DNA of 34,211 nt from NCBI GenBank assembly GCA_021773245.1, contig JAJFKK010000046.1, forward strand, positions 1 to 34,211, in the 5' to 3' direction. Numbering within the stretch: position 1 is the first letter of the stretch; each line of letters begins with the position of its first letter. This document shows positions 22,852 to 33,963 of the stretch, in pieces. Below the pieces are notes generated by a model. The model saw only the letters and a program-made list of their open reading frames with translations, searched no databases and was not told the origin of the DNA. Both the position numbers and the translations under genes were made by a program. This DNA is from Gammaproteobacteria bacterium (lineage in GTDB: Bacteria > Pseudomonadota > Gammaproteobacteria > Eutrophobiales > Eutrophobiaceae).

Positions 22852-25680
22852 TTATGCGATTTTATCAGATTTTTGATTATACAAAAGGATATGCTGTAAT
22901 AACTTATCTTCTGGTAATGGCCTGGATAAAAAGAAGCCTTGCGCTTCATCACAATTAATTGCATCTAGAAAATCATATTGTGCTTTAGTTTCAACACCCT
23001 CTGCCACTACTTTCAATGACAAACTATGTCCTAAAGCAACGATTGCTTTGGTAATAGAAGCAGAATCATCGCTCAAATTAATATTATCAATAAAGGATTT
23101 ATCAATTTTTAATTTATCAATGGGGATTTTTTGTAAATAGGTCATAGACGAATAACCCGTACCAAAATCATCGATTGCTATTTTTAAACCATGTTCTTTA
23201 AACTGATTTAACAACCTTATCGTTTTAGGGAAATTTTCGATTGTTGATGATTCCGTTATTTCTAATTCAATAGTTTCTGGGTTTACATTTGTATCCTCAA
23301 GGATAGCAACCATATTTTCGTATAATTGAGGCTGTCTAAATTGATCAGTGGAAATATTTATTGCAATCTTAAGGTTAAAACCATGGTCATTCCAAAGTTT
23401 GCTTTGTTGACATGCTGTTCTCATAACCCAATAACCGATATCTGTAATCAACCCTGTTTCTTCAGCTAAAGGAATAAATACAGACGGTGGAACCATTCCT
23501 TGTTCGGGATGGTGCCATCGAATTAAAGCTTCAACCTCATAAATTTTAGAATCATTAAAGTTTATTTTTGGCTGGTAATACAATTCAAACTGATTGTTTT
23601 CTTGAGCATGCCTTAAGTCGCTTTCTAATTCTAGCAACGCCAGTGTTTCTTTATTTTGTTGCTTTTTATAATATCGAAAACTGCCTGAACCTGTCGCTAA
23701 ACTTTTCGCTGCATACATAGCTGTATCAGCATTTTTTAATAAATCCGATAAATTGTCAGCATCTTCGGGGTAAATAGCTATTCCTATACTTGCGTCAATA
23801 TGAAACTCACGATTACTTAAAACAATAGGTTGAGACATTAAGCTAATAATTTCATAAGTTACTCTTTTTGTCCTTTCTTTTAACTCATCATATTTTAATC
23901 CAGAAATAATTATAGTAAATTCGTCACCACCTAATCGAGATACTGAATCAAACAAGTCAGAGCACTCTTGGAATATGTATGAGACCTCAATTAAAAGTTC
24001 ATCTCCAACAGAGTGCCCCAAAGAATCATTAACACTTTTAAAACGATCAAGGTCAATAAACAGCACAGCTACGCTTTGCTGTTCTTCTTCTGCAAGGTCA
24101 ATAGCTTTTTGAAGATTGTCTTGGAATAGAAAACGATTAGGCAATTGTGTTAAATGATCATAATTAGCCTGGTAAAACAATTTCTTTTCCCAATTAGCAT
24201 TAGAAAAGGCGACGCTTGCACGATCGGATATCTCTTTTATATCTTCACGCAATGCATCATCTAACTCTAACTCTACATCGCTATCAAAACCGAGACATAT
24301 AACGCCACAAATACCATCAACACTATTAATCGGACTAACTAAAAATGAAACTGAAGAAAACTCTTGTAATGGTAATAAGTAACTCAACTGTTCTTTATTA
24401 TGTTTAATGACAACATCATTAATGACCATCAATTCATCTAATTCATTTTGATTAAGGTGTACTTCAATTTTTCTTAACTCTTCATCGCCTTCATGCATAT
24501 ATTTCAAATGCGCTATATCCGCATTATCTGTATCGATAAGTAATATTGCATTTTCATCTGCTGATACAACAGACGGCATGTATTCAATCAGCACTTTTGA
24601 AATATAGTCTTCATCATATGCTGTTAGAGTTAACCTATCTATTTGAGATAATGCTTTTATCTTATTAAATTGGCCATCTATCTTCACAACCATTTTATTA
24701 AAAGTTTCACCTAGGACAGCAAATTCATCATCACTAGTAATATTAACTTTTTTTGTATAATCACCAGTTATAATGTTTTTAGCCCCTTCAATTAACTTAA
24801 GCAAAGGGGTGAGGCTACGTCGCATTTGAATACTACTGATAACGAAAACAATCATTAACGTTATTGTTATCGATAACGGCAATGCATCTATATAATAATT
24901 GTATTCCATCAGCGCTTCTTTTTTTGGCATAAAATAAACAACAGACATAGAGTCCATATTAAAATTTGATTTCAGAAACACATCCCAAGCACTACTTAAA
25001 TACTTTTCCTCGTGAATTATTGTTTCAAATAAACTGTTGTTTCTAACTACACTTAACTGTTCTTTGATATTTAAATATGTATCCAGATCATTTTCAGGGA
25101 GCTGACAATGTAGAAGGTGATGGTGCTCAACAGATACACAATATATGTCGGTTTGCTTTGTTGTGATATTCCAAAGATATTCCGGATTTAGTGTTGCCAC
25201 TAACAATTGATCTTTGTCAGAGGAAGACCTATTAACCATGACTATTTTATCTTGTTCATAACCAGAATCATCTAATAACAGCACGCTTTTATTATGTTCT
25301 AGATGTTTTATTTGTGATTCATTTAAATCAAGCTCATCTAACACATCACCAAAATAATTAAACTTGAAATCATTAGTTTTATATAGAGATAAACTGCTAT
25401 ACATTTCTTTAGCTAATTTATTAGAACTAATTAAATCAGCATTATTTATATATCCTCCAAGATTGATTAGATTGTTTTCCGCCGCAAGAATACGGTCGTA
25501 AATTGTTAATCCAACCGCACGACTCTCGGCATATATTTGCCGCGCAGCATTTTTTTCCAGAATACTGATAACCGTATAGTAAGAAATAACTGAAAGTATA
25601 ATGACGGGAATGATTGCTGAAAAAAAATATTGACTAAACAGCCTGCGTGAAAGCGTCGTATTGTATATATTGTTTTTCAT
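22852..25680 (-). CDS. Membrane sensor GGDEF-EAL protein (HAMP-GAF-GGDEF-EAL)
   Basis: 942 residues. One membrane helix at about 20-38 and a second at about 265-283 enclose a periplasmic sensor. HAMP follows (about 285-338; RRSLTPLLKLIEGAKNIITG, DEFAVLGETFNKMV). A GAF-like domain covers about 345-495. The GGDEF domain has DLDRFKSVNDSLGH and the intact active site RLGGDEF. The EAL domain has YEVEALIRWHHPE, DDFGTGYSS, KIDKSFI and the loop-6 region EGVET. Both catalytic domains look intact, so synthase and phosphodiesterase activities are both possible; which prevails cannot be predicted. It lies 9 bases after the pseudopilin gene. Confidence 0.93.
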   Translation of the reverse strand: MKNNIYNTTLSRRLFSQYFFSAIIPVIILSVISYYTVISILEKNAARQIYAESRAVGLTIYDRILAAENNLINLGGYINNADLISSNKLAKEMYSSLSLYKTNDFKFNYFGDVLDELDLNESQIKHLEHNKSVLLLDDSGYEQDKIVMVNRSSSDKDQLLVATLNPEYLWNITTKQTDIYCVSVEHHHLLHCQLPENDLDTYLNIKEQLSVVRNNSLFETIIHEEKYLSSAWDVFLKSNFNMDSMSVVYFMPKKEALMEYNYYIDALPLSITITLMIVFVISSIQMRRSLTPLLKLIEGAKNIITGDYTKKVNITSDDEFAVLGETFNKMVVKIDGQFNKIKALSQIDRLTLTAYDEDYISKVLIEYMPSVVSADENAILLIDTDNADIAHLKYMHEGDEELRKIEVHLNQNELDELMVINDVVIKHNKEQLSYLLPLQEFSSVSFLVSPINSVDGICGVICLGFDSDVELELDDALREDIKEISDRASVAFSNANWEKKLFYQANYDHLTQLPNRFLFQDNLQKAIDLAEEEQQSVAVLFIDLDRFKSVNDSLGHSVGDELLIEVSYIFQECSDLFDSVSRLGGDEFTIIISGLKYDELKERTKRVTYEIISLMSQPIVLSNREFHIDASIGIAIYPEDADNLSDLLKNADTAMYAAKSLATGSGSFRYYKKQQNKETLALLELESDLRHAQENNQFELYYQPKINFNDSKIYEVEALIRWHHPEQGMVPPSVFIPLAEETGLITDIGYWVMRTACQQSKLWNDHGFNLKIAINISTDQFRQPQLYENMVAILEDTNVNPETIELEITESSTIENFPKTIRLLNQFKEHGLKIAIDDFGTGYSSMTYLQKIPIDKLKIDKSFIDNINLSDDSASITKAIVALGHSLSLKVVAEGVETKAQYDFLDAINCDEAQGFFLSRPLPEDKLLQHILLYNQKSDKIA

Positions 25681-25689
25681 TTATTATTT

Positions 25690-26202
25690 TTAATAATCAG
25701 CAGCAACGCCCACAAACAATCCATTTCTTCCTCTAACTATATCATCTTGACTGATAGCTGCGGTTAAAGGTGATGCCGTTTTTCCGTCGGGTCCCATGCT
25801 ATAAAAATCATAATCAGAATTTATTGGCACGAGATTTTTATCTTTTCTAAATTTACCCTTACCTTTACCTTTTGCATTTTGAATATTGGTATATTGATAT
25901 GGATTACCCCAAGGGTCTATTGGTACTTCATCAAATACTTCTTCTAATGAATCTGGGAAACGCCCATTTTTCTTAAAAAAATCATCAATTGTTGTTATTG
26001 ATTCTTCAATAACGTTACTGGTAGTACTTGTTTTAGCATTGTTAACAGAAGCAACTATTGCCGGTGAAACCGTCATATAAATCAAACTAACGATCATCAT
26101 ACCAACAGCAATTTCAATTACAGTAAATGCTTTACTCTTCTGTCTTTGACTTAATGTGTTCAATTTAATTACGTTTTTTATGTTATTGAAAAATAAAGAC
26201 AT
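25690..26202 (-). CDS. GspG-like type II pseudopilin
   Basis: Prepilin-like protein of 170 residues. A basic leader ends KSKA before FTVIEIAVGMMIVSLIYMTVSPAI; Glu at +5 is present and the -1 residue is Ala rather than the usual Gly. The periplasmic part carries GspG hallmarks: GRFPDSLEEV, PIDPWGNPYQYTN, DYDFYSMGPDGK, and a DDI near the end. The lysine/glycine stretch KGKGKGKFRK is unusual. It sits 9 bases upstream of the GGDEF-EAL gene, with no other secretion or pilus genes in the window. It may be processed by a chromosomal prepilin peptidase such as PilD. Confidence 0.8.
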   Translation of the reverse strand: MSLFFNNIKNVIKLNTLSQRQKSKAFTVIEIAVGMMIVSLIYMTVSPAIVASVNNAKTSTTSNVIEESITTIDDFFKKNGRFPDSLEEVFDEVPIDPWGNPYQYTNIQNAKGKGKGKFRKDKNLVPINSDYDFYSMGPDGKTASPLTAAISQDDIVRGRNGLFVGVAADY

Positions 26203-26362: not shown

Positions 26363-27523
26363 ATGCTACTTAAAGAATCCTTTTTGTCAGTCGATTTATA
26401 CCTAATGTTAAAAAATAAAAACCAGTCTATAAATGATGAGAGAAGGAACTATTACCGTATCCTCAACGTGCAACCCGACGCCTCGCTAGAAATCATTAAA
26501 AATAATTATAGAACCTTATTACAGAAATTACGTTTACACCCTGATCTTGGTGGTAAAAACTGGAATGCCAGCATCATTAATGAAGCTTATAACACGTTAA
26601 GCAAACCACTTAAGCGTGCTGAATATGATGAAAAATTATTACAAACATATGATTTAAAGTCTTTGGCTCGCGGCAACCTTGATAACAATTCAAACCAACA
26701 GGAAAACTATAAATTTAACAGTAAAGATAAACACGGAAACCAACGTAATTTTTATCGTTTGTTCAATATACAAGCCGACTCACCAGCACACATAATTAAA
26801 ACCAGTTATCTAACCTTGTCTAAAGATCCGGATGTGCCGAAAGAATTATTAAACATGGCTTATACTATTCTTAGTAACTCGGATAAACGTGCCTTGTATG
26901 ACAAACTATTATCAAAGCATAATCATGGTTATGCTTTAAAAAAATTAACCACACACAAGCAAGGAAATATTACACTTCATACTCATGAACAAGAAAAGAT
27001 AACCTCAACGAATACTAAACAAACTAGCATCGTAAAAGTCAAACGTTCACGCGTTAGTTCTGAGTATGGAAACTCAAAACAATCATATTACCAACCTGTC
27101 ATCACGCAATACTGTTCTTTTTGTAAAACACCACATAATCAAAGTCCATGTGAACATACGGCAGCATTATGTAATGAATGTAAAAGCCCTCTCTTTCCTC
27201 CATCAGATGCGTTTCTTGAACAACAGCGTAGAGATATAATTCGCATCTCTAAAGATCAGCATATTTACTTCTATGCATATTGGCCGGGCACAAAATTAAC
27301 GGGCGCTATCGCTGACATATCACCTACAGGAATACAATTAATTTCAGATAAAGAATTAGCTGAAGAGCAAATTATCAAACTGGATGGTGAAGATTTTAAA
27401 GCAGTCGGTGTCGTATCTTATTGCAAAAACAATAAATCCAATGGACAACAAATCAGCGGCATTCAATTTCTAACCGTTAACTTCAATAAACGCAAAGGCC
27501 AGTTTTTCTCAGAATCAGCTTAA
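26363..27523 (+). CDS. J-domain, zinc-motif and PilZ protein
   Basis: 386 residues with an unusual domain order. A DnaJ J domain at about 29-92 (NYYRILNVQPDAS, HPD at 59-61, INEAYNTLSKPLKRAEYDEKL). A second, degenerate J-like domain at about 129-184 (NFYRLFNIQADS, MAYTILSNSDKRALYDKLL) has lost HPD. A cysteine region follows at 251-273 (CSFC and CNEC, with C263). A C-terminal PilZ domain spans about 288-375 with both c-di-GMP-binding motifs, RDIIR (RxxxR) and DISPTG (DxSxxG). I infer a c-di-GMP-responsive DnaK co-chaperone. It is divergent from the GGDEF-EAL operon. The start is uncertain (M1 or M15); neither has a Shine-Dalgarno. Confidence 0.85.
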   Translation: MLLKESFLSVDLYLMLKNKNQSINDERRNYYRILNVQPDASLEIIKNNYRTLLQKLRLHPDLGGKNWNASIINEAYNTLSKPLKRAEYDEKLLQTYDLKSLARGNLDNNSNQQENYKFNSKDKHGNQRNFYRLFNIQADSPAHIIKTSYLTLSKDPDVPKELLNMAYTILSNSDKRALYDKLLSKHNHGYALKKLTTHKQGNITLHTHEQEKITSTNTKQTSIVKVKRSRVSSEYGNSKQSYYQPVITQYCSFCKTPHNQSPCEHTAALCNECKSPLFPPSDAFLEQQRRDIIRISKDQHIYFYAYWPGTKLTGAIADISPTGIQLISDKELAEEQIIKLDGEDFKAVGVVSYCKNNKSNGQQISGIQFLTVNFNKRKGQFFSESA

Positions 27524-32961: not shown

Positions 32962-33963
32962 TTGTTTCAACGATTCAAGAATACTTGGTGTTTTTACCTT
33001 GTTTTATTTATCGCTTTGCCAGTGTATGCCTTTGAACCAGGGCTATACGGCTCCCTTCGTTTGCAAGGTGAGTATGTTGAGCCCGATAACAAACCCAATA
33101 ACTTTGACAGTTATGTAGCGCCACGAGATGCTTACTCAAGAATTGGTTTAAAAATAGCCCATTCTTTCACGAGTGAATGGTCGGCTCTTTTCCAGATAGA
33201 AGCTGCACTTGATCTGGCAAACCTAGCTATACAAGGTACTTGGGATCAAGATGAAGACTTAAGAATTTTCAAGCTTGATATTTCTGGTCCTTTAGGGTTG
33301 TTGTCATATGGTAGAGACTGGCTTCCCTATTACAATAAAATTGCATACCCGGTTGATTACTTTAGTAGTTATTACAGTGGCTTTGCTACATTCACCACTT
33401 TTCGTTTGGACGATATCCTCTATTACACTTCACCCACACATAACGGGATTCAGTTTTCGATAGCGACATCAAAAGATAATGGCTCGACAGATGAAAGCAG
33501 GAACCAATATACAGTTTCATATACAAACAAAGTATTGACATTAGCAGCGGGTGTTGATGATTTAGGTGGTAATGGCAACACAAAAATACTTGGCTGGGCT
33601 GCTTCGTATAAAAAAGGCTCATGGTACCTTGCTGCTAAATATGAGCGCTTTAATAGTGATATAGCGGGGAATGGCTGGGCTGCAAATGGAACAGAAGCTG
33701 TTAACTTTTTAGTACAACATACTGTTGGGAAACATGTGCTACGGGCAATGCTGGCTAATGTTGATAATTACGGTGAATTTGTTTTCCATACTGGCTGGGA
33801 CTTCCATTATAACGAAAGGACAAAACTGTTCTTTGAGTATTATCAAGAACAGGAAACGGCTGCAATAGCAGACGTCAGGCAAACAACATCATCCGGTAGT
33901 AACTCCGATCCTGCCGATAGTGGAGGCCGAAGCTTGCTTGTTGGGATTAGGTATGATTTCTAA
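32962..33963 (+). CDS. Gram-negative outer-membrane porin
   Basis: Predicted 16-stranded general porin (Porin_4/OmpC-like) of 333 residues. Signal peptide FKNTWCFYLVLFIALPVYA followed by mature FEPGLYGSLRLQGEYVE. Typical strands: SRIGLKIAHSFTSEWSALFQIE, PLGLLSYGRDWLPYYN (constriction loop), ILYYTSP, and the C-terminal Phe (SLLVGIRYDF). A TTG start at 32962 is supported by AGAGG eight bases upstream; the overlapping frame 32882-33118 is rejected. The stop overlaps the next gene's ATG by one base, implying coupled expression with the sensor gene. Confidence 0.87.
   Translation: MFQRFKNTWCFYLVLFIALPVYAFEPGLYGSLRLQGEYVEPDNKPNNFDSYVAPRDAYSRIGLKIAHSFTSEWSALFQIEAALDLANLAIQGTWDQDEDLRIFKLDISGPLGLLSYGRDWLPYYNKIAYPVDYFSSYYSGFATFTTFRLDDILYYTSPTHNGIQFSIATSKDNGSTDESRNQYTVSYTNKVLTLAAGVDDLGGNGNTKILGWAASYKKGSWYLAAKYERFNSDIAGNGWAANGTEAVNFLVQHTVGKHVLRAMLANVDNYGEFVFHTGWDFHYNERTKLFFEYYQEQETAAIADVRQTTSSGSNSDPADSGGRSLLVGIRYDF

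Follow-up and report, generated by a model that had tools for sequence, protein, structure and literature searches.

A candidate c-di-GMP receptor fused to a J-domain protein in a patchily distributed gammaproteobacterial family

We analyzed a gene in the window, by which we mean the whole 34,211-nucleotide stretch of DNA under study. Its open reading frame (26363 to 27523, opening with ATG, 386 amino acids, plus strand, as are all features within it) encodes, in one chain, an active-type J domain (J1), a shortened J-like domain (J2), a four-cysteine zinc-ribbon-like segment, and a PilZ domain. A preliminary description of this DNA had given the same coordinates and the order J, degenerate J, cysteine motif, PilZ, and this order is borne out by Pfam, by the orthologues, and by profile comparison. 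Residues are numbered here from the ATG at 26363; relatives with matching length and spacing to the ERRNYYR stretch begin at the equivalent of Met15 when the orthologues are compared, so we place the probable true start at the ATG at 26405 (residue 15), and the first 14 codons (26363 to 26404) are probably not translated. A misread or chance reading frame is ruled out by dN/dS and by the orthologues, and a unique or recent fusion or an assembly artefact by the occurrence of the gene in independent genomes of many genera. Two genes on the minus strand are divergent from it: a pseudopilin-like (T2SSG) gene (25690 to 26202; Pfam E = 5.9e-6) and a gene for a membrane HAMP-GGDEF-EAL c-di-GMP enzyme (22852 to 25680; Pfam).

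J1 (residues 29 to 89; 26447 to 26629) scored 64.7 bits against Pfam DnaJ (PF00226, E = 8.5e-18), well over the curated cut-off of 27.8 bits. Its HPD motif (residues 59 to 61; 26537 to 26545) lies between helices II and III, as in a J domain of the Hsp40 superfamily, and is invariant in all 19 aligned family members, in agreement with the HPD-containing J domain first described at residues 29 to 92. J2 (about residues 129 to 180; 26747 to 26902) was matched by the same profile at 24.5 bits (E = 3e-5), slightly under the cut-off in the window protein, and in 8 of 8 orthologues, the best with an E value of 8.9e-10. The description of a second J-like domain lacking HPD also held: HPD was absent from 11/11 J2 domains, its loop is deleted, and a “DPD” in the J2 of the window protein is not conserved among relatives. 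On these grounds we rejected J2 as an active J domain.

J2 sequences were nearer to the J1 domains of the family, often those of a shorter, single-J form, than to the remaining J domains of the window's genome. A tree of J1 and J2 split the family's J domains from the genome's other J domains (100/98) and left a single origin of J2 unsettled. The simplest reading of these sequences is that J2 arose by internal duplication of a J domain followed by loss of HPD, and it is most likely a structural or docking module beside the sensor. The protein shares an N-terminal J domain with HPD and cysteine knuckles with class A DnaJ; it differs in having only two CxxC pairs rather than four CxxCxGxG repeats, and no DnaJ_C or central-domain match was found by Pfam. 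Canonical DnaJ identity was rejected with NCBIfam DnaJ_bact, which gave 52 bits against a cut-off of 377.

Following J2 is a fast-evolving, low-complexity linker (26903 to 27088), with dN/dS of 0.28 to 0.79 in pairs without saturated sites; model pLDDT falls below 50 at residues 199 to 248. The zinc-ribbon-like segment (27113 to 27181) reads C251-x2-C254 ... C270-x2-C273, then SPL. All four cysteines of these two CxxC pairs, which had already been noticed in the letters, are invariant in 19 C-terminal sequences, and the dN/dS of the ribbon is 0.017 to 0.022; a fifth cysteine of the window protein (SPC) is not conserved. Pfam returned no zinc-ribbon match for the window protein, and we predict from the cysteine pattern that the segment binds zinc.

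The C-terminal region was examined with profiles and with structure predictions. PilZ domains bind c-di-GMP through RxxxR and [D/N]xSxxG, and both motifs had been reported as intact within a PilZ domain at residues 288 to 375; we place the domain at residues 286 to 375 (27218 to 27487) on the combined results of Pfam, hhalign, AlphaFold2, and Foldseek. Both Pfam searches proposed in the preliminary description were run, and PF00226 was above its cut-off while PF07238 was slightly below it: in the window protein the PilZ match (residues 308 to 373; E = 6e-4) reached 20.5 of the 22.5 bits required, such that Pfam's own rule would miss it. PF07238 matched 13 of the 19 family members (E up to 0.01), the best at 4.8e-7. 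When an alignment of eight C-terminal regions was compared by hhalign with seven further PilZ domains encoded by the window's genome, the match had an E value of 3.2e-6 and a probability of 87.9%, with RxxxR and DxSxxG aligned to the same motifs of those domains. The first motif (R290-DII-R294; 27230 to 27244) has both arginines invariant in 19/19 sequences; in the second (D318-ISPT-G323; 27314 to 27331), serine and glycine are invariant, and the first position is D or N in 19/19. The residues of a c-di-GMP receptor (R290 and R294; D318, S320, and G323) are thus retained throughout the family, and among the genome's remaining PilZ domains some (L006, L011, and L012) lack one or both motifs.

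AlphaFold2 placed six strands at residues 300 to 374, as in a six-stranded PilZ-like barrel, with a pLDDT of about 80 to 88 for this block. Confidence in the whole-chain model was low (pLDDT 59, pTM 0.28), so interdomain geometry is unreadable from it. Searching this model with Foldseek returned PilZ proteins as the top six (PP4397, MotI/DgrA, MrkH, and YcgR first), with J-domain structures close behind. The C-terminal region modelled alone (pLDDT 76, pTM 0.71) gave a less clean result, in which PilZ structures were among the best and non-PilZ barrels were interleaved. Since no Foldseek E value was below 0.001, the structural evidence is supportive and not decisive alone. The barrel is strictly followed by a conserved C-terminal tail, KGQFFSESA in the window protein (27488 to 27520; GxFxSxxA in the family), in which Gly379 is invariant in 19/19.

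We looked for the same architecture in other genomes. A family emerged, with members in about 15 of the 271 gammaproteobacterial genera sampled. Full-length orthologues were present in 5 of the 57 relatives searched (G001, G007, G009, G016, and G019), at 69 to 45% identity, all in the same genus or family. A C-terminal profile search of 369 genomes of the class matched 16 genomes; after exclusion of L067, a stand-alone PilZ protein, 15 genomes remained, so the gene is patchy and occurs in about 4% of sampled gammaproteobacterial genomes. Among the named records, two Nitrosomonas MAGs and one Thiotrichaceae MAG carry the gene. In a sample of 399 genomes spanning the phylum there were no further full matches, those outside Gammaproteobacteria being PilZ-only, and no plasmid copies were found. 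The family takes two forms: a short J-ribbon-PilZ form with a single J domain (about 236 to 264 amino acids, typically about 245) and the long J-J'-ribbon-PilZ form (about 330 to 386 amino acids), to which the window protein belongs. In two close relatives the gene is broken, showing recent independent losses: the G005 copy (L087, 8796 to 9479) has decayed with stops, and the G011 copy (L086, 8983 to 10806) is truncated beside IS-type transposase genes. The gene is thus dispensable.

Identity to the window protein falls to 23% among the 19 C-terminal sequences, and only nine columns do not vary: four cysteines, two arginines, a serine, a glycine, and one late glycine. Eight of these nine are the positions expected for a putative two-knuckle metal site and c-di-GMP pocket. 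The hypergeometric probability of eight pre-named motif columns falling among nine invariant ones of about 138 is about 3e-12; restricted to the four PilZ positions, it is about 8e-7. Both values ignore phylogeny and are indicative only. L044 and L043, the closest ortholog pair, gave dN/dS values of 0.04 for J1, 0.125 for J2, 0.017 for the ribbon, and 0.08 for PilZ, and 0.28 to 0.40 for the linkers; synonymous sites of deeper ortholog pairs are largely saturated, and those pairs were used qualitatively only. The values in the closest pair indicate that all four modules, the HPD-less J2 included, are under purifying selection. J2 demonstrates that a J fold can be retained without HPD, and this would suit a c-di-GMP effector whose J domains are protein-interaction modules only, with DnaK not engaged; we consider such an effector very unlikely, however, as every J1 keeps HPD and few parts of the protein are as constrained as J1.

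J domains of the HPD type recruit and activate DnaK. The best reading of the gene product is a J protein joined to a candidate c-di-GMP receptor, since domain order and motifs are conserved across distant genera. Specifically, we propose, with a probability of roughly 0.55, that the protein is a class C (specialised) J-domain co-chaperone in which c-di-GMP would set the recruitment of DnaK or the choice of client. The window's genome is in keeping with this: it encodes one full-length DnaK, and the profiles gave 38 matches for GGDEF, ten for PilZ, and four for J domains. J1 would engage this DnaK via HPD and trigger ATP hydrolysis, as would be expected from what is known of the family, and the ribbon-PilZ block would be the ligand-reading part and probably also the partner-binding part. 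Because RxxxR sits in the short stretch between the ribbon and the barrel, the ligand should reorder this block: c-di-GMP may order the RxxxR segment, and the ordering may alter the binding of the block or free J1, so that delivery of a partner protein to DnaK would require a given c-di-GMP level. J2, apparently descended from a J domain and without the HPD needed for DnaK stimulation, would have a docking or structural role beside the sensor. We infer from this arrangement that c-di-GMP may choose which client reaches DnaK, or where. More tentatively, the family could be an allosteric, c-di-GMP-gated set of Hsp70 co-chaperones across Gammaproteobacteria, in which the messenger would directly switch DnaK recruitment to chosen clients, proteostasis would be a direct output of the motile/sessile switch, and J2 would be an autoinhibitory mimic released by c-di-GMP; we regard this larger proposal as doubtful.

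The regulated co-chaperone that we favor is best judged beside known PilZ and J proteins. The PilZ fold and the RxxxR and [D/N]xSxxG motifs are shared with YcgR, PP4397, and MrkH, which were top Foldseek matches. In proteins of that type, PilZ is joined to another PilZ-like domain or to one of YcgR-N type, and to our knowledge none of these or other c-di-GMP-binding PilZ proteins is a J protein. CsdK1 and CsdK2 of Myxococcus xanthus are PilZ-DnaK chaperones that stabilise the client CdbS (PMC10313047), and they offer a precedent for our proposal. Like the window protein, they join PilZ to the Hsp70 machine, and the c-di-GMP motif of CsdK2 is intact (PMC10313047). They differ in that their PilZ domain is N-terminal on Hsp70 itself, with no J domain and no ribbon; Pfam found no HSP70 match in the window protein. 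They also differ in that their contact with the client is independent of the c-di-GMP motif: mutating the motif in CsdK2 left contact with CdbS undisturbed in the test (PMC10313047).

The last result would also suit an ordinary specialised J protein in which the PilZ fold is conserved for binding a client or partner and c-di-GMP has no physiological role. In CsdK2 it is the DnaK part, not PilZ, that touches the client, and the motif mutation had no effect on this contact (PMC10313047); M. xanthus PlpA has the motif residues and is reported not to bind c-di-GMP (PMC8316039). Such a protein is nonetheless unlikely in our case, as only the ligand residues and one glycine are invariant in the PilZ part and the remainder has diverged. 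Several points do count against the regulated co-chaperone: PilZ domains that bear the motifs do not always bind c-di-GMP, as PlpA illustrates; the motif mutation in CsdK2 left its client contact intact; the gene is dispensable and patchy; and it has no neighbor conserved throughout the family.

In a M. xanthus survey, four of 24 PilZ proteins are given a DnaK or DnaJ domain, and the motility, EPS, and development phenotypes of the screen are assigned to other named proteins, plpA, pixA, pixB, and pkn1 (PMC8316039). The DnaJ/PilZ combination seems already noted there, as domain lists (PMC8316039), and our comparison with these proteins is by description only. CbpA and CbpM of E. coli also involve a J protein with regulated DnaK-facing activity (PMC4063869); there the regulator, CbpM, is a separate protein that binds the J domain, not a sensor of a small molecule within the J protein itself. 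Another c-di-GMP effector, Tsrp1 of Rhodococcus, lacks a PilZ domain and was set aside as unrelated. A text search of open-licence PMC papers turned up nothing on DnaJ-PilZ as such, nor any description of a J-J'-ribbon-PilZ chain in exactly that order. The earlier remark, that no described system with this exact order was known, stands within that search, and the gammaproteobacterial J-(J')-ribbon-PilZ family appears to be undescribed. The remark does need a qualification: joining PilZ to the Hsp70 machine is already known and is not new here, given the Myxococcus PilZ-DnaK proteins and PilZ proteins with DnaK or DnaJ domains.

If a J protein does carry its own small-molecule signal input, this would be a direct and testable link from c-di-GMP signalling to the DnaK machine. 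In the literature searched, the Myxococcus PilZ-DnaK proteins are so far the one known case of such a link, and what c-di-GMP itself does in them is unsettled. The family suggests that chaperone activity can be directed by a signal tied to lifestyle. Its short form, of about 245 amino acids, is a compact system for asking if a nucleotide messenger gates Hsp70 recruitment, and a duplicated J domain kept under selection after loss of HPD bears on the role of inactive J domains.

Finally, we compared the genomic neighborhoods of the gene. Within the genus, in four genomes (that of the window among them), it is divergent from the pseudopilin-like and membrane GGDEF-EAL genes, and UPF0176 (TrhO-type) rhodanese and cmoA/cmoB-like methyltransferase genes adjoin. 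In these four genomes, the pseudopilin-like gene (25690 to 26202) is apparently paired with the GGDEF-EAL gene. Neighbors beyond the genus differ (pyrE/uvrA-like genes in G179, a trpF-like gene in G124, and mazG in G080), with names assigned by eye from the sequences, as they were for G298. In G298 (L073, 8061 to 11425), the short-form gene is flanked by an HDOD-like gene on one side and a second PilZ-like gene on the other, and the locus adjoins flagellar genes (flagellin- and filament-cap-like); these surroundings are a possible functional hint for the family.

The divergent gene pair of the genus and the G298 locus would both fit a role for c-di-GMP as a localiser or assembly signal only, in which PilZ docks the protein and DnaK at a c-di-GMP-dependent complex and J1 is allosterically unaffected. 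Candidate complexes, which we put forward with equal reserve, would be a pilus, a polysaccharide or flagellar machine, or the neighboring GGDEF-EAL/pseudopilin pair. We think such docking rather improbable, however: these neighbors are lineage-specific, and most of the distant members have unrelated ones (pyrE/uvrA-like, trpF-like, and mazG). Comparing the carrier loci revealed no conserved operon partner beyond the genus, no universally conserved neighbor, and none that names a client. GGDEF genes within about 9 kb showed a weak enrichment, with 6 observed against 2.06 expected (p = 0.02). GGDEF proteins were encoded in 19 of the 19 carrier genomes examined, which is a weak test since they are common in the class. 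Elsewhere in the window, a 333-amino-acid open reading frame (32962 to 33963) without a Pfam or NCBIfam match has a signal-like N-terminus and perhaps encodes a porin-like outer membrane protein.
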